A stretch of 64,000 nucleotides of DNA from Pythium myriotylum (taxonomy: Eukaryota > Oomycota > Peronosporomycetes > Pythiales > Pythiaceae): contig JALJCQ010000019.1 of NCBI GenBank assembly GCA_023091665.1, positions 682,001 through 746,000 of the forward strand, written 5' to 3'. The translations under genes and the position numbers were made by a program. The notes under the pieces were generated by a model, which was not told the DNA's origin, did not search any database, and saw nothing but the letters and a program-made list of their open reading frames with translations. Positions 56,580 through 64,000 of the stretch are shown here, in pieces (the stretch's first letter is position 1; every line of letters starts with the position of its first letter).

Positions 56580-58339
56580 ATGAAACGGCCTCGGTCGAAA
56601 ACCAAGAGGACTCGAGCCTATCAGCCAGTAGACGAGGAAGAGGAGAAAGAAGGATCCACGAGATCACCGCGTAAGAAACGACAAGCCGCCCAACGACCGG
56701 GGACGGCGGAGACTGAAGAACAAGAAGAGGAGGAAAAGGAAGAAGAATCTAAGGGCGACACACGAAGCACTAGCGAAAGAGCTGCGGCGGACAATCAAAG
56801 AAGGACGGTGCGAGTGAAGGACGCTCAAGATCGTCGGTCCTCGTGGGCTAATGGACAGTATGAGAATTGGAATGATACGGAGGCGAAGAATAATTTGCGG
56901 CCCAAGACCAAGCGGCTGACGATGAAGGATCTGGTGGCCAAGTTCAACGATTATTCACAGAAACAAGGGTGGCAGCCACATTCCACTCATACGATCCGCG
57001 CACGGCGTAACAGGGAAGAAGATTCGGCAGCCCGCACGGTTCGGCTGGACAATTTAGATCGCAAGAGGCTGAACATCCTGTTCCACGAGACGAAGAGCTG
57101 GCCCACTGCGACCCGGAAATTTAATGAGGAGCGCGGCACTAATTTATCTCGAGATGCAGCTATTCAAGCCGCAAGGAGAGTGGAGCTGGATGACAGTGGT
57201 CGCGAACGTCTTCGCGAACTGTACGAAGAATTTGAAGACTGGACCTCAGCGCTGGAAGTATTTGTAGCCGAAACAGGGCATACATTGATAAAAGAAACTG
57301 CTCAGTCGCTTTTAGAGCAACAAGCACCTCCTACGCCCGCGCAAGGATTGAAACGACAGCGGTGGACGAACCGGGAGGTGGAACTTCTCAAGGATTATAC
57401 AAATGCATCACACCTCCGGATTCCGGTCGCGTATCGTGACTTTTGCCAGCGGATGGTCGACGAAGAGCCTCGATACCAGGTTCGGTCGTATCAATCATTC
57501 TTGTATCACCTTCATGAGGTGAGGAGAGCTACGATCGAAGAAGGAGCCGACATCTGCCCGTGCCGAGTGTGGACTGAAGATGATTTGAAAGAATTTGAAG
57601 CCTTGGCTCGCAACGCTACATCGAAGTTCAAATTGGTGCGGGATGCAGCGAAACAATTCGACTGCACCCGGCAATTTTTGAACCAAGTGTACGAACAACA
57701 GGTGCGGCCGAGGTTGTTCGTAAATTCAACTAGTCATCAAGCACCGATGGGTGTCAGAGAAGATGACGTGTACACTGAGGCATTCCCGCGTGCAAGAATT
57801 TTTGTGACTTCTGAGACCAACACTGCTATCGACGAGGACCTACGACGGGTAGTAGATGAAGGGCACGTTCCGACCTCAAGAATTCTGCGGATTGGCGAGA
57901 TGCCCAAGGACGTGGGGGTCAAGTATCAACAATACTATCTGCAATATCTGCTGGATCAATGTCAACAGCCCGGGATTGCGATGAGCACCTATGAGAATCG
58001 GCTGTTGGATCAAGCTATGGTCGTGTTCGGCACAACATCAATATTTGGGCGCGAAGATTTATCCAGCTATCCTTGTGTACTGTTGATCAACGATGAAGCG
58101 GCCCAGACTGTCGAATGCTCGGTGATACAAGCCATGCGCCCGGGACCAGGGCTTTCGTCCCCATCGAGGACCCAAACCAACTGCCAGGAAGAGTCGAGTT
58201 CCGGGAAGAGCTGGCGGAGTGGTACGAGGAGGGAGACAAGCGCCACAAGCTGAGCTGGAGTTTCCTGCATGGCTGCAGTTACCTCTACGAGAAGTTCCCG
58301 GGAGTGACGCTGACCGCTCAACATCGGTGCCATCGATAG
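56580..58339 (+). pseudogene. HTH-repeat / SF1 (UPF1-like) helicase chimera, truncated
   Basis: Open frame 56580-58253 from ATG 56580. Residues 1-100 are charged and low-complexity. About 140-380 contains three or four helix-turn-helix or Myb-like blocks (RWTNREVELLKDYT; VWTEDDLKEFEALA). From about residue 400 it becomes a superfamily-1 helicase of the UPF1/SEN1 type: FVTSETNTAIDE (motif Ia), ILRIG, and NDEAAQ (motif II). A one-base frameshift near 58145 moves motif III (DPNQLPG) and motif IV (AQHRCH, usual QHRMH) into the next frame, which stops at about 58339 before motifs V and VI. No Walker A is found. So the helicase is incomplete at both ends. It is the last gene before the telomeric array. 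Confidence 0.65.
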
Positions 58340-58499: not shown

Positions 58500-58530
58500 T
58501 AGGGTTTAGGGTTTAGGGTTTAGGGTTTAG
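58500..58530 (+). repeat. TTTAGGG telomeric tract 1
   Basis: Four consecutive TTTAGGG-type units on the plus strand, directly after non-repetitive subtelomere. This marks an old chromosome terminus onto which retroelement copies were added. Confidence 0.95.
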
Positions 58531-58580
58531 AGAGGCTTGAAGTGACTTGCAAAGACTTGGTCAGGGAAACTACGACCCAC
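58531..58580 (-). mobile_element. Penelope-like element stub, copy A
   Basis: 50 bp identical to the extreme 3' end of the long copy (starting AGAGGCTTGAAGTGACTTGC on plus), truncated on its 5' side (right) and capped there by TTTAGGG. Confidence 0.85.
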
Positions 58581-58596
58581 AGGGTTTAGGGTTTAG
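58581..58596 (+). repeat. TTTAGGG telomeric tract 2
   Basis: About two telomeric units between stub A and stub B. Confidence 0.9.
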
Positions 58597-58778
58597 AGAG
58601 GCTTGAAGTGACTTGCAAAGACTTGGTCAGGGAAACTACGACCCAAAGAGTTGCTCTATTACAGATGCAGGGGCTCTTTCGACTTGATGTCTTCGTCGGT
58701 GGGCGTCTTCGTGCTGAGTGGAAAATTGAAAACTGAGGAAGACCGCCGACCTCGCCCCCGGGTGCCTACGCTAAAGTC
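58597..58778 (-). mobile_element. Penelope-like element stub, copy B
   Basis: 182 bp of the element's 3' end, same left boundary as copies A, C and D, truncated at CTAAAGTC and followed by telomeric repeats. The heat-shock-element cluster of the long copies is not included. Confidence 0.88.
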
Positions 58779-58802
58779 TAGGGTTTAGGGTTTAGGGTTT
58801 AG
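58779..58802 (+). repeat. TTTAGGG telomeric tract 3
   Basis: About three and a half TTTAGGG units between stub B and long copy C. Confidence 0.93.
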
Positions 58803-59082
58803 AGAGGCTTGAAGTGACTTGCAAAGACTTGGTCAGGGAAACTACGACCCAAAGAGTTGCTCTATTACAGATGCAGGGGCTCTTTCGACTTGATGTCTTC
58901 GTCGGTGGGCGTCTTCGTGCTGAGTGGAAAATTGAAAACTGAGGAAGACCGCCGACCTCGCCCCCGGGTGCCTACGCTAAAGTCCTACGCTAGAGTCCTA
59001 CGCTTCTGGGTTCTAGGGCTGGACAGGAACTTGAGTGTTCTGGGTCTGCGTGTCTGTGCTGCTGGGGTCTTGAGACACGTGA

Positions 59083-59165
59083 GAATATTCGACGTCCTGG
59101 GTTGAACATTCTCGAACATTCTCGGGAATATTCTCGAATGTTCGGTCGAACGTTCTCGAACCTTC
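59083..59165. promoter_or_regulatory. Triple heat-shock-element array in copy C
   Basis: Seven GAAnnTTC octamers at 59083, 59104, 59114, 59126, 59136, 59148 and 59158. The last six form three perfect GAAnnTTCnnGAAnnTTC clusters with a 22-bp period. This is the canonical binding site of trimeric heat-shock factor, repeated in register. A CACGTG palindrome is at 59076-59081. Confidence 0.8.
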
Positions 59166-59203
59166 GACAAACTTTTCGACTGGGTTGGCCGAAATTTTCG
59201 TCT

Positions 59204-59240
59204 GGGTTTAGGGTTTAGGGTAGGGTTTGGGGTTGAGGGT
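59204..59240 (+). repeat. Internal degenerate telomere-like tract, copy C
   Basis: GGGTTTAGGGTTTAGGG followed by imperfect units (GGGTAGGGTTTGGGG). It is repeated at the same place in copy D (62781-62817), so it is part of the repeating unit. It separates the 3' block from the reverse-transcriptase end. Confidence 0.85.
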
Positions 59241-59484
59241 CGGGGATGGGTTGTAGACAGATAGTGCACGATCCGGGCGGCCATTCTTGAATTTGCTCGC
59301 AATATGCCAAGCGTTCGCTGTTACCCTTTCGAGGGGGATCATCCCAAGCCAGCCGCTCCGTGAGCCTTCACTGCACGACCCCATACTCTGTGGCATGGTT
59401 CCAAATGAGTGGGTAGCAGCAAGGCTAAACACGTTCTCGCGCGCTGGAAGGGCACGGTCATCCGTGTCCGGGGTGGTCCAGGCT

Positions 59485-61377
59485 TTAATGCATGGCATCT
59501 CCCGAGCTGTTCTTGAAGTGGTCGTCGTAGATGTTGGCCCTGAACTCTGATGGACAGAGTATGTCTCGGAGGTTCCGTGGACGGCGGTAGCACACAGTGA
59601 TCTTGATGTTGTGGGCTGCGAACTCGTCTTCAATACGGTGGGCTTGATAGATAGCTCGTAGTTGTTTCCGAGTTGGGCCGTTCGGGTCATAAGGCACAGA
59701 CAAGAAGACTTGCTTGGGCTTGCCGAGTTCCGTGGTTGGCCGCGTCGTCTGTTGTGCTTCTTCTTGTAGCTTGGCGATTCTTTCGATGGCGTCGCGGAAA
59801 TGGTCTCTAAGCTGGTTAGAGTTGTATCCGCGAGCTGCCAGGCGCTGGAAGAAGGCTCTGACTTGAGACAGGAAATCTTCCTTCCTGGTGTTCTGGCGGT
59901 AATACTTCTGGACAATGCCGATGATGAGGCCTTTCAGAACGCCTGGAGGGTGTGCGCTTTGAGCCGCGATGTAGAGATAGAGATTGAGCTCTTTCTCATG
60001 AGTTCGAGTCTCGTATCTCGTGTCGGATCGGCGGATTTTGAGGTCAAGAAACGGTGCTTCACGACCGCGTTCCATGTACGTCCAGCGAAGTCCTGGAATC
60101 GTGTTGAGGCGGATCTTGAAGAGTTCGAAAGCACGGGGATCTTTTCCGTCTTGCCAAATCAAAAACACGTCGTCGATGTAGCGCTTGTAGAGCACGATGT
60201 AGTTGCTGAACTCTCGAAGGATGCTTCGCTCGTGATACGCTACGTAGAGTGATGCGTACGTGGGGGCACATGGTGTTCCCATGGCGGTGCCCTTGATTTG
60301 CTTCCACACGCAGTCTCCGAACATGAACAAGTTCTCGTTCATGATGTAGTCGAGACCTTGGACGATCACATTCTCGAAGCGATGCTTCTCTTCTTGGAGC
60401 ATGGCTTTGATTGTTGCGATGCCGATGTTGGTGGGGATGTTGGTGTAGAGCGAGACGGCGTCAAATGTGAACAAACGATGCTTGGGGCTGGGCTGAATCT
60501 GTCGAAGTTCAGTCAGCAGCGTGTCGGAGTCTCGAAGGTACGATGGCTGTCGCTGGAGCATGTCTTGCAACTGGAAATCGATCCACTTCGAGAGACCGGC
60601 TGTCGGTGTTCCGCAGCTGGCAATGATAGGGCGAATGGCGAGATCCTCCTTGTGGAGCTTTATCAGGCCATAGAAGCGTCCTAACTTGCACGAACTTGGA
60701 TTACACTTGATGACAGCAACTTGTCGTTGGATGACTGGATCTTCACGGTACTGGTAGTTGAGTAGCATGTAGATCAGGTTCACTTTGGCTGCGATCCGTT
60801 GGATCTGGGTCTCTGGTCCGTTGGGAAGACGATACAATGGCGTGTATGTCTCCTCGTCACTCAGGTGATCAAGACACATGGAAGTGTACTGTGATCGAAG
60901 CATGAGCGTCGGGCCGAGGTTCTTGTCTGCCTGCACGACCATCAAGTTCGGATCATTTCGTAGCAATCGTAGCAAGTTGCGTTGGTTGCTGTCGAGGTTG
61001 AACTTGTGTCGGAAGGGATACTGTGCAATGAGTTCGGTCGCGTGTGACTTGATCGACTCCAGTAAATCTTCTTGATGGCGTGGCAGGTGGTTTGGCTGGA
61101 AAGCAAGGTTTGGAACGTAGATCTTCGAGTTGTAGTCGCGGTCGCTGGAGTCAGCAAACTGGACTGCAATTCGAAGAGACCGGACGAGTTTGGGGAAGAT
61201 GGTAACTGGCGAGAGGGAAGAGCGTTGCGGCGGAGGTGTCGGGCAGAACTTGAGGTTCAGACCCAGGAGTCTCTTCAGACCTGGTGGAATCTTGGTGCCA
61301 CGTGGTGTGAGATTGTGGAACGCGAGATTGCGAGGCAATGCGTCCACATCACAAGCCCTACGACAGCCGAAGATCAA
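59485..61377 (-). CDS. Penelope-like reverse transcriptase, no GIY-YIG
   Basis: About 630 residues from the first recognisable family residues near 61377; the codon there is TTG, and the frame stays open upstream, without ATG, to a TGA near 61680, overlapping ORF1. Palm motifs: YGLIKLHK, DAVSLYTNIP, GTAMGTPCAPTYASLYVA, catalytic YIDDVFLIW (about 60170) and PFLDLKI. The C-terminus ends soon after RRPRNLRDIL, exactly where endonuclease-bearing Penelope elements continue into GIY-YIG; that domain is absent. This is the plan of telomere-associated Athena/Coprina-type elements. It should copy element RNA onto chromosome 3' ends. Expression probably needs frameshifting from ORF1 or a non-AUG start. 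Confidence 0.85.
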   Translation of the reverse strand: MIFGCRRACDVDALPRNLAFHNLTPRGTKIPPGLKRLLGLNLKFCPTPPPQRSSLSPVTIFPKLVRSLRIAVQFADSSDRDYNSKIYVPNLAFQPNHLPRHQEDLLESIKSHATELIAQYPFRHKFNLDSNQRNLLRLLRNDPNLMVVQADKNLGPTLMLRSQYTSMCLDHLSDEETYTPLYRLPNGPETQIQRIAAKVNLIYMLLNYQYREDPVIQRQVAVIKCNPSSCKLGRFYGLIKLHKEDLAIRPIIASCGTPTAGLSKWIDFQLQDMLQRQPSYLRDSDTLLTELRQIQPSPKHRLFTFDAVSLYTNIPTNIGIATIKAMLQEEKHRFENVIVQGLDYIMNENLFMFGDCVWKQIKGTAMGTPCAPTYASLYVAYHERSILREFSNYIVLYKRYIDDVFLIWQDGKDPRAFELFKIRLNTIPGLRWTYMERGREAPFLDLKIRRSDTRYETRTHEKELNLYLYIAAQSAHPPGVLKGLIIGIVQKYYRQNTRKEDFLSQVRAFFQRLAARGYNSNQLRDHFRDAIERIAKLQEEAQQTTRPTTELGKPKQVFLSVPYDPNGPTRKQLRAIYQAHRIEDEFAAHNIKITVCYRRPRNLRDILCPSEFRANIYDDHFKNSSGDAMH

Positions 61378-61409
61378 ACTGGCGTTGAAGAGATCCGAGC
61401 GGTCGCGTC

Positions 61410-62318
61410 TTATGATCGCGCGGTTTTGGCGCCGCGCGGCGGTTTGTCGGCGGCGTTGCTCCTTTTCCTTTTGCTTGCGCTTCGCGTGTTGCCGTTTCTT
61501 CCGCTGTTTGAGGCGGAAGTTCCCTTTGCGGCGTCGGCCTTTGGTGCAGGGTGCTTCTTGTTCTTGCTGACGGTCGCACCCTTCGCGCCAGCTCTGGCGT
61601 TTTTTCGTTCCTGTTGCTTTGGAACCTTCCGGTCGATACGGAGCTGTCGTAGTTCGTTCTTGATCGATTGTAGCTTGCGATCAATCAACACGTTCACGAG
61701 ATCCTGGTTTGGAGTTTCCACCTCCATGTCGGCAGCCGCGGCTTGCTTGGCTTGCTTGTCGACGAGTCGGATGCTCGCATCAGCTTGGCTGTATCGTTCC
61801 GCAAGCTCAAACTGGGTCAGGCGAGCTTCGAACTCGTCCTTGGCATGGTGGTAGATGTCGACATATGCGTTCTCGTCTCGATCTTCTTCTTCCATGGCAT
61901 CCCAGTTGATAGTGTCATACTTGCCGTTCGGGTCGGCTTTGCATGCGAGCTTGCAGTACTCAAGTGCTCGATCTTGGAAATCGTCTCGGAGCTTCTGAAC
62001 TTGGAGCTCAAGTTGTTCGAGTTCGGCTTTCTGTACGCTGAGGATGAGATCGAAGGCTTGGTGCTGAAACTGTAGCTTCAGAGCATCGAATTGATTCATC
62101 AGCGTGAGCACTCGAGTTGGAAGGGCCGTCTGGAGTTCGTTGGAGACAACAAGCTTGGCCTGTACTCGCAGGGATCTGGGTACTTCTTGGCGTTCGCGTT
62201 GTTGTTGCATCTTGCGGAGGCTCTCTTGCTTCGCGCTGAGCTTCCGGTGCAGCTTCTTATAGCGCTCCAGATACTCCAGGGTGGTCTTCATCAGTGGGCG
62301 CGGCAGACTACGATCCAT
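61410..62318 (-). CDS. ORF1 of Penelope-like element, coiled-coil RNA-binding type
   Basis: 302 residues from ATG 62318 to TAA 61410-61412. The first 230 residues are rich in Lys, Glu, Gln and Leu with long heptad-like coiled-coil stretches (LYLERYKKLHRKLSAKQ-like start; VQKAELEQLELQVQKL). The last 75 residues are strongly basic (KNARAGAKGATVSKNKK; KRKRSNAADKPPRGAKTA), as in nucleic-acid-binding gag-like proteins. No enzymatic motif. Its 3' portion overlaps the open upstream part of the reverse-transcriptase frame by roughly 270 nt. It likely packages element RNA; that role is inferred from composition and position. Confidence 0.7.
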   Translation of the reverse strand: MDRSLPRPLMKTTLEYLERYKKLHRKLSAKQESLRKMQQQRERQEVPRSLRVQAKLVVSNELQTALPTRVLTLMNQFDALKLQFQHQAFDLILSVQKAELEQLELQVQKLRDDFQDRALEYCKLACKADPNGKYDTINWDAMEEEDRDENAYVDIYHHAKDEFEARLTQFELAERYSQADASIRLVDKQAKQAAAADMEVETPNQDLVNVLIDRKLQSIKNELRQLRIDRKVPKQQERKNARAGAKGATVSKNKKHPAPKADAAKGTSASNSGRNGNTRSASKRKRSNAADKPPRGAKTARS

Positions 62319-62369
62319 GGCGATGATGGAGAGTCTTTCCTTAATTGCTTCGTCACGCGGGGCTTGGTC

Positions 62370-62379
62370 TAGGGTTTAG
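62370..62379 (+). repeat. TTTAGGG telomeric tract 4
   Basis: TAGGGTTTAG: just over one unit, separating the 5' end of copy C from the 3' end of copy D. Confidence 0.85.
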
Positions 62380-62659
62380 AGAGGCTTGAAGTGACTTGCA
62401 AAGACTTGGTCAGGGAAACTACGACCCAAAGAGTTGCTCTATTACAGATGCAGGGGCTCTTTCGACTTGATGTCTTCGTCGGTGGGCGTCTTCGTGCTGA
62501 GTGGAAAATTGAAAACTGAGGAAGACCGCCGACCTCGCCCCCGGGTGCCTACGCTAAAGTCCTACGCTAGAGTCCTACGCTTCTGGGTTCTAGGGCTGGA
62601 CAGGAACTTGAGTGTTCTGGGTCTGCGTGTCTGTGCTGCTGGGGTCTTGAGACACGTGA

Positions 62660-62742
62660 GAATATTCGACGTCCTGGGTTGAACATTCTCGAACATTCTC
62701 GGGAATATTCTCGAATGTTCGGTCGAACGTTCTCGAACCTTC
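62660..62742. promoter_or_regulatory. Triple heat-shock-element array in copy D
   Basis: Same seven GAAnnTTC octamers as in copy C, shifted by 3577 bp. In the direction of transcription this array lies about 340-425 bp upstream of copy C's ORF1 ATG (62318), a suitable promoter position. Confidence 0.78.
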
Positions 62743-62780
62743 GACAAACTTTTCGACTGGGTTGGCCGAAATTTTCGTCT

Positions 62781-62817
62781 GGGTTTAGGGTTTAGGGTAG
62801 GGTTTGGGGTTGAGGGT
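62781..62817 (+). repeat. Internal degenerate telomere-like tract, copy D
   Basis: Second instance of the tract seen at 59204-59240. Confidence 0.85.
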
Positions 62818-63061
62818 CGGGGATGGGTTGTAGACAGATAGTGCACGATCCGGGCGGCCATTCTTGAATTTGCTCGCAATATGCCAAGCGTTCGCTGTTA
62901 CCCTTTCGAGGGGGATCATCCCAAGCCAGCCGCTCCGTGAGCCTTCACTGCACGACCCCATACTCTGTGGCATGGTTCCAAATGAGTGGGTAGCAGCAAG
63001 GCTAAACACGTTCTCGCGCGCTGGAAGGGCACGGTCATCCGTGTCCGGGGTGGTCCAGGCT

Positions 63062-64000
63062 TTAATGCATGGCATCTCCCGAGCTGTTCTTGAAGTGGTC
63101 GTCGTAGATGTTGGCCCTGAACTCTGATGGACAGAGTATGTCTCGGAGGTTCCGTGGACGGCGGTAGCACACAGTGATCTTGATGTTGTGGGCTGCGAAC
63201 TCGTCTTCAATACGGTGGGCTTGATAGATAGCTCGTAGTTGTTTCCGAGTTGGGCCGTTCGGGTCATAAGGCACAGACAAGAAGACTTGCTTGGGCTTGC
63301 CGAGTTCCGTGGTTGGCCGCGTCGTCTGTTGTGCTTCTTCTTGTAGCTTGGCGATTCTTTCGATGGCGTCGCGGAAATGGTCTCTAAGCTGGTTAGAGTT
63401 GTATCCGCGAGCTGCCAGGCGCTGGAAGAAGGCTCTGACTTGAGACAGGAAATCTTCCTTCCTGGTGTTCTGGCGGTAATACTTCTGGACAATGCCGATG
63501 ATGAGGCCTTTCAGAACGCCTGGAGGGTGTGCGCTTTGAGCCGCGATGTAGAGATAGAGATTGAGCTCTTTCTCATGAGTTCGAGTCTCGTATCTCGTGT
63601 CGGATCGGCGGATTTTGAGGTCAAGAAACGGTGCTTCACGACCGCGTTCCATGTACGTCCAGCGAAGTCCTGGAATCGTGTTGAGGCGGATCTTGAAGAG
63701 TTCGAAAGCACGGGGATCTTTTCCGTCTTGCCAAATCAAAAACACGTCGTCGATGTAGCGCTTGTAGAGCACGATGTAGTTGCTGAACTCTCGAAGGATG
63801 CTTCGCTCGTGATACGCTACGTAGAGTGATGCGTACGTGGGGGCACATGGTGTTCCCATGGCGGTGCCCTTGATTTGCTTCCACACGCAGTCTCCGAACA
63901 TGAACAAGTTCTCGTTCATGATGTAGTCGAGACCTTGGACGATCACATTCTCGAAGCGATGCTTCTCTTCTTGGAGCATGGCTTTGATTGTTGCGATGCC
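63062..64000 (-). CDS. Penelope-like reverse transcriptase, copy D (partial)
   Basis: C-terminal half of the reverse transcriptase, identical in the compared residues to copy C, including GTAMGTPCAP and YIDDVFLIW. It ends at the same stop and also lacks GIY-YIG. The N-terminal half lies beyond the window. Confidence 0.85.
   Translation of the reverse strand, partial: GIATIKAMLQEEKHRFENVIVQGLDYIMNENLFMFGDCVWKQIKGTAMGTPCAPTYASLYVAYHERSILREFSNYIVLYKRYIDDVFLIWQDGKDPRAFELFKIRLNTIPGLRWTYMERGREAPFLDLKIRRSDTRYETRTHEKELNLYLYIAAQSAHPPGVLKGLIIGIVQKYYRQNTRKEDFLSQVRAFFQRLAARGYNSNQLRDHFRDAIERIAKLQEEAQQTTRPTTELGKPKQVFLSVPYDPNGPTRKQLRAIYQAHRIEDEFAAHNIKITVCYRRPRNLRDILCPSEFRANIYDDHFKNSSGDAMH

Follow-up and report, generated by a model that had tools for sequence, protein, structure and literature searches.

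Penelope-like elements (PLEs) and telomerase are traced to a common ancestor (PMC3846280), endonuclease-deficient elements are described as priming at exposed chromosome ends and gaining telomeric repeats at their truncated 5' ends (PMC3846280, PMC5537684), and internal initiation by the reverse transcriptase (RT) is shown in vitro for another PLE, PAc of Anolis, for which multi-copy transcripts are proposed (PMC11167929). Priming at telomeres by endonuclease-less PLEs has so far been inferred from sequence joints, and in the open-licence literature searched, including PMC11139960, PMC12477816 and PMC8381367, no telomeric PLE of an oomycete is described. Here we analyse a candidate from Pythium myriotylum, located in a 64,000-nucleotide stretch that we refer to as the window (C19:682001-746000; the assembly comprises 58.7 Mb in 55 contigs). 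We estimate a probability of roughly 60% that this is a telomere-associated, likely endonuclease-less PLE that extends chromosome tips by copying RNA from a telomere paired with a short box, with capping by telomerase. The first-pass annotation of the window had described a telomere-associated retroelement whose copies share one 3' boundary, differ in where their 5' ends lie and, when truncated, carry telomeric repeats, and all of these features were recovered.

What the sequence shows directly in favour of this reading is that the 3' ends keep one register while the 5' ends vary and bear telomeric tracts, that the RT frames are open, that units are joined by a constant box, that copies lie at contig ends and that a telomerase domain is encoded in the same genome. 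An assembly-wide search for the 3' boundary joined to telomeric repeats, which the first-pass annotation had suggested, yielded 237 occurrences of the 3'-terminal 20-mer, 236 of them directly after GGGTTTAG and in one register; the sole 3' end without a preceding GGGTTTAG is at C4:32228. In the stretches that were fetched, 84 of 84 3' ends follow telomeric GGGTTTAG. Places were listed for the first 100 of the 237 3' ends and the first 100 of 157 unit 5' ends, plus sets of 58, 70 and 14 of 14. Among the matches listed, every one is less than 47 kb from a contig end (24 ends on 19 contigs; the most distant match is 46.3 kb in), so that the mostly internal copies that would have refuted the first-pass reading were not seen, and at all of these places the sense direction of the element points into the chromosome. 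Thirteen inner boundaries to non-element sequence were found with twelve different end sequences (those of C3R and C26R are identical, and C3L and C17L have a motif in common). Where contig ends were retrieved to the final base, they carry terminal TTTAGGG tracts; the exception is the left end of C12, which starts within a unit and has no telomere at its tip. Subtelomeres near 24 contig ends hold a single young element whose frames are open, and the genome encodes a telomerase domain besides.

In the window the element is present as four copies of 49, 182, 3567 and at least 1621 bp, all antisense to the plus strand, an orientation that matches priming by a G-rich telomere 3' end, as had been proposed. 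All four begin with AGAGGCTTGAAG directly after TTTAG (four matches in the window against a chance expectation of 0.01). The last non-element base is 58499, after which the TTTAGGG tract starts:

58500..58530, plus strand: TTTAGGG tract of the healed end, leading from non-element chromosome DNA into the element array; the junction reads GAACTCGAA|TAGGG
58531..58579, minus strand: copy 1, a 3'-end fragment of 49 bp; the element sense is the minus strand
58580..58596, plus strand: telomeric spacer CAGGGTTTAGGGTTTAG after copy 1
58597..58778, minus strand: copy 2, a 3'-end fragment of 182 bp
58779..58802, plus strand: telomeric spacer of 24 nt after copy 2
58803..62369, minus strand: copy 3, a full 3567-bp unit, the first of seven identical units on C19
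59204..59240, plus strand: internal telomere-like tract in the 3' untranslated region (UTR) of copy 3, 18 nt perfect; it recurs in copy 4 at 62781-62817
59488..61680, minus strand: RT frame, 731 codons from stop to stop, predicted TERT-like
61413..62318, minus strand: ORF1, 302 aa, without a Pfam match
61599..61605, minus strand: slippery heptamer AAAAAAC in the ORF1 frame within the ORF1/RT overlap; predicted -1 frameshift
62370..62379, minus strand: 10-nt box, plus strand TAGGGTTTAG, sense CTAAACCCTA, the complement of 1.5 telomere repeats, at the junction between a unit 5' end and the next 3' end
62380..64000, minus strand: copy 4, a second full unit that runs past the window end

The earlier claim of four copies with a common 3' boundary joined to TTTAGGG therefore stands, with the first copy measuring 49 rather than 50 bp. 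The end of the window is not the chromosome end for which it had been taken, since C19 is 786,801 nt long and 40.8 kb continue beyond 746,000. The 3567-bp copy, previously regarded as 5'-truncated, is instead full-length and opens an array of seven units with a period of 3577 bp, and the statement that each copy is capped by TTTAGGG applies to the truncated copies; copy 3 ends in the constant 10-nt joint, followed by identical units. A long open reading frame (ORF) at 56580-58253, directly before the healed end at 58500, has a C-terminal part that matches AAA_11 (38 bits) and is perhaps a broken helicase gene.

Full units are joined in a single way. The unit 5' end GTCACGCGGGGCTTGGTC occurs 157 times genome-wide and is followed in 157 of 157 cases by TAGGGTTTAGAGAGGCTTGAAG, which is exactly TAGGGTTTAG plus the next 3' end; a longer telomere tract was found behind none of the 157. 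Of these 5' ends, 58 are listed on contigs before C30, including those of the 3577-bp arrays. In the fetched stretches 30 of 30 unit ends have the invariant joint, while truncated copies have variable telomeric spacers of at least 14 nt. Arrays consist of n full units plus one truncated unit: seven plus 243 nt on C19 (the seven units at C19:740803-765841), six plus 242 nt on C13 and seven plus 1973 nt on C4. The successive rounds of addition previously read from the window are consequently right in part, as the 3567-bp and later copies form a homogeneous tandem array with an invariant 10-nt box; seven identical full units with an invariant joint point to templates of several units or to amplification as DNA, and not to a separate capped insertion for each copy. 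Single-nucleotide polymorphisms (SNPs) are common to the units within an array and differ between arrays (the seven units on C4 carry an identical seven SNPs), and recombinant haplotypes were identified at C11R, with a reciprocal switch between 699 and 1654, and at C13L, where unit and tail come from different haplotypes. Smaller blocks are also repeated. At C30:2536 to about 15075 there is a 133-bp satellite in which a unit 5' end and a 3' end are found together with the 10-nt box; 42 copies are listed, and the spacing suggests about 94. At C17:3447606-3448661 a 259-bp block, made of a 229-nt fragment and a 30-nt telomeric spacer, is present in four identical copies, a sign of local DNA amplification. 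A 6280-bp compound block on C13 is amplified as well. Given these three amplified blocks and the recombining haplotypes, it is very likely that DNA recombination enlarges the arrays.

Truncated copies range from 24 to 3399 nt. Within the fetched stretches 43 of them end (tandem duplicates included), and 34 of the 43 pass directly into pure TTTAGGG repeats; 37 distinct end/length pairs were counted, a few of them shortened by indels. Truncation at about 49-52 nt is seen at 14 places genome-wide, with six different joint sequences, so that they likely arose repeatedly. After removal of nine ends with impure tails and collapse of duplicates, 28 joint events remained, and in 13 of these the truncated copy and the telomere have at least 2 nt in common, compared with 17.6% expected (p = 0.0004). 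The tails that follow full units tend to measure 191-430 nt (six of nine, against four of 29 lone copies; p = 0.0045, for an interval picked after inspection of the data), as might be expected if transcription began within the 3' portion of the adjacent copy. A strong hairpin as the cause of RT halting was rejected, given that the predicted hairpin at the 49-nt stop ranks 803 of 3499 by minimum free energy. The internal 18-nt tract (59204-59240) is complementary to the telomere and longer than the box, yet is seldom an insertion start: there is one exact match, C3L, which may be an expansion of that tract, and one candidate, C3R. It may be the relic of an old joint, or a site bound by a protein.

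The RT is predicted to be TERT-like on the basis of its predicted fold, among the families in the VIA-align list, and its frame is open in 70 of 70 scored copies. A PDB sequence search with the single protein gave no match; with the profile there were seven weak matches, the best (E 0.0019) to a group II-like RT. A second Pfam match of the RT, to HEPN_Toprim_N, was below its cut-off. The lack of a GIY-YIG domain noted earlier was borne out by Pfam scans: the domain is absent from the matches of the RT frame (E up to 1) and of ten other frames including ORF1 (E up to 0.1), and it was rejected for these 11 of the 28 frames of at least 60 codons. Rfam matches at E up to 1 or 5 included no hammerhead, a search that degenerate forms could escape; the matches to other families were weak and chance-like. 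The RT frame has its first Met only at residue 247 and lies in the -1 frame after ORF1, an arrangement seen in five of five elements compared. In-frame slippery heptamers (AAAAAAC, CCCAAAA, AAAAAAG/AAAAAAA) are present in the ORF1/RT overlaps of the window element and of the related loci L080, L081 and L085, and the sequences make a conserved -1 frameshift likely. The best reading of this sequence evidence is that the element would be a variant of the Athena/Coprina type of endonuclease-less PLEs, Coprina being known from fungi.

Relatives were found in Pythium and in metagenomes. The RT is 91% identical over 57% of the query to the Pythium insidiosum protein P0001, and among the best 120 of 1051 related proteins P0001 and P0054 are from Pythium. 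The ferric reductase encoded in the window is nearest to those of Aphanomyces euteiches (72%) and Pythium oligandrum (66%); the contrast with the RT could mean that the species are closely related and an orthologue is missing, or that the element was transferred horizontally. One relative of ORF1 was found, P0236 (70% identity, 302 aa), and its metagenome contig measures 3577 bp, equal to the unit length here. Six related loci (L080-L085) are on contigs filed under bacterial and archaeal metagenome-assembled genomes, which are probably mis-binned eukaryotic DNA. Four of the six (L080, L081, L083 and L085, with offsets of 3922, 3442, 3079 and 5653 bp) have two ORFs with a related RT and an organisation that is tandem or terminally redundant; that of L082 and L084 is neither. 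Upstream of ORF1, L085 carries TAACCCTAACCC (0 of 1000 shuffles), and the two copies in L081 carry AACCCTAACC and ACCCTAACC (30 and 55 of 1000 shuffles). Among viral contigs, 111 pattern matches included no relative.

In the mechanism that we propose, the telomeric G-overhang would pair with the CUAAACCCUA box in a tandem element RNA, the box serving as a primer-binding site, and the predicted telomerase-like RT, presumably produced by -1 frameshifting from ORF1, would copy outwards, proceeding in the direction of the RNA 5' end. Synthesis would halt where the RNA runs out, at favoured sites or randomly, and telomerase would cap the resulting 3' end. Any overhang ending within the box would yield the same joint, and hence the single 3' register. 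The template RNA may be longer than one unit and have its start in the neighbour's 3' portion (pLTR-like), and in a putative second layer DNA recombination between units would enlarge and even out the homogeneous arrays.

Several observations weigh against this mechanism. The joint (GGTC, then TAGGGTTTAG, then AGAGG) could stem from a single founder insertion amplified as DNA, in which case its constancy is no proof of function; a founder event could account for the constant joint, and a function of the box in priming is what we infer from the sequence. About 94 of the 157 joints sit in the one 133-bp satellite on C30, the number beyond the 42 listed being estimated from spacing. The 133-, 259- and 6280-bp periodicities and the C11R and C13L recombinants require DNA recombination or template switching, and in a few insertions (C3L, C3R) the start may have been the internal tract and not the box. 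The structural match to telomerase is moderate, with query-normalised Foldseek TM-scores of 0.34-0.44, and shuffled sequences fold as well as two stretches near the 3' UTR and the joint. Most SNPs among copies are non-synonymous, and no sign of recent purifying selection is therefore seen. Finally, two of the four tandem relatives, L080 and L083, have no telomere-like box upstream of ORF1, though their hosts may have other telomere repeats.

The part played by DNA recombination could be larger than a second layer. If telomere-primed single insertions, each a unit with a short tail, were multiplied by unequal sister exchange via tail homology, the box would need no special role. Some insertions (C13R, C3L and C21, the last with a 268-nt tail) do consist of precisely one unit and a tail, the tails provide the required homology and recombinant haplotypes are present, but the absence of long-telomere caps from all 157 unit 5' ends is left unexplained unless all derive from one joint, as is the tandem state of related elements unless one joint is ancestral to all. 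We regard unequal exchange as possible, with the odds somewhat against it. A founder 3577-bp DNA circle might also have been copied onto many telomeres by recombination-dependent rolling replication, with the RT required for no more than the founder and short pieces. This suits arrays that are uniform within an end and different between ends (seven units on C4, six on C13, seven on C19), the likewise amplified 259-bp (four times, C17), 6280-bp compound (C13) and 133-bp (about 94 times, C30) blocks, and C11R, which resembles a single cross-over of such a circle into a truncated copy, with both the ref/H7 and the H7/ref switch in the interval given above. An annealing circle, however, should often use the longer 18-nt tract, which is seen once exactly and in the C3R candidate against 236 cases at the 3' box, and the recurrent 49-52-nt pieces with differing joints, together with the 70 of 70 open RT frames, suggest ongoing reverse transcription; the circle is, in our judgement, unlikely.

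An inert subtelomeric satellite, left by a dead element and spread by end-to-end recombination alone, would be in keeping with the high copy number, the satellite-like 133-bp array and the mostly non-synonymous SNPs, but is very unlikely in view of the same open RT frames and the 37 distinct end/length pairs. Mis-assembly of repeats as the source of arrays and joints is harder still to credit. Identical long units do assemble poorly, which makes exact unit numbers unreliable, and C12 starts mid-unit without a telomere; against this stand the terminal TTTAGGG tracts at the ends other than C12 left, the array-specific SNPs, the twelve end sequences at 13 inner boundaries, the one orientation at all listed places and the recurrence of tandem organisation in unrelated assemblies.

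Under telomere-primed copying, the preferred reading, a closer parallel to telomerase can be drawn, which we put forward tentatively and consider doubtful: as a self-spreading element, it would have a tandem or circular RNA that carries the 10-nt CUAAACCCUA box as a template for priming by the G-overhang, the RT would pass through or around successive units, one priming event could add tens of kilobases of identical units, and host-matched boxes just upstream of ORF1 would mark a widespread group of such tandem, telomere-lengthening elements in microbial eukaryotes. Templates of telomerase RNAs are about as long as this box of 1.5 repeats. C13L contradicts a rolling mode in which a circular RNA of one unit is copied, since the tail behind unit F(B) there has a different haplotype, unless conversion occurred later. 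With 237 3' joints and one exception, a template-like constant box and recurrent truncation points, telomere-primed internal initiation becomes testable in vitro.

Compared with known systems, the element is closest to the Athena (bdelloid rotifers)/Coprina type, for which PMC3846280 and PMC5537684 describe a telomerase-related RT, no GIY-YIG, residence at chromosome ends and telomeric repeats at truncated 5' ends and at 3' ends. Apparent differences from that type are its likely oomycete host, invariant 10-nt joint, homogeneous multi-unit arrays, derived 133-bp satellite and predicted -1 frameshift. With canonical Penelope/Poseidon elements, as represented by PAc of Anolis (PMC11167929), it shares the tandem organisation and would share the pLTRs, the internal RT start and the proposed multi-copy RNA; unlike them, it has no GIY-YIG, gave no Rfam hammerhead match and has a telomeric target. 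The MoTeR/FoTeR elements of fungi likewise lie within telomeric repeats and include truncated copies, but they are described (PMC12857005) as non-LTR elements with a restriction-like endonuclease, and no such endonuclease was found in the window element. The likeness to telomerase consists in the predicted fold of the RT and a 10-nt box complementary to 1.5 repeats; in contrast to telomerase, the whole element would be copied rather than one repeat, and the box would lie within the element's own RNA.

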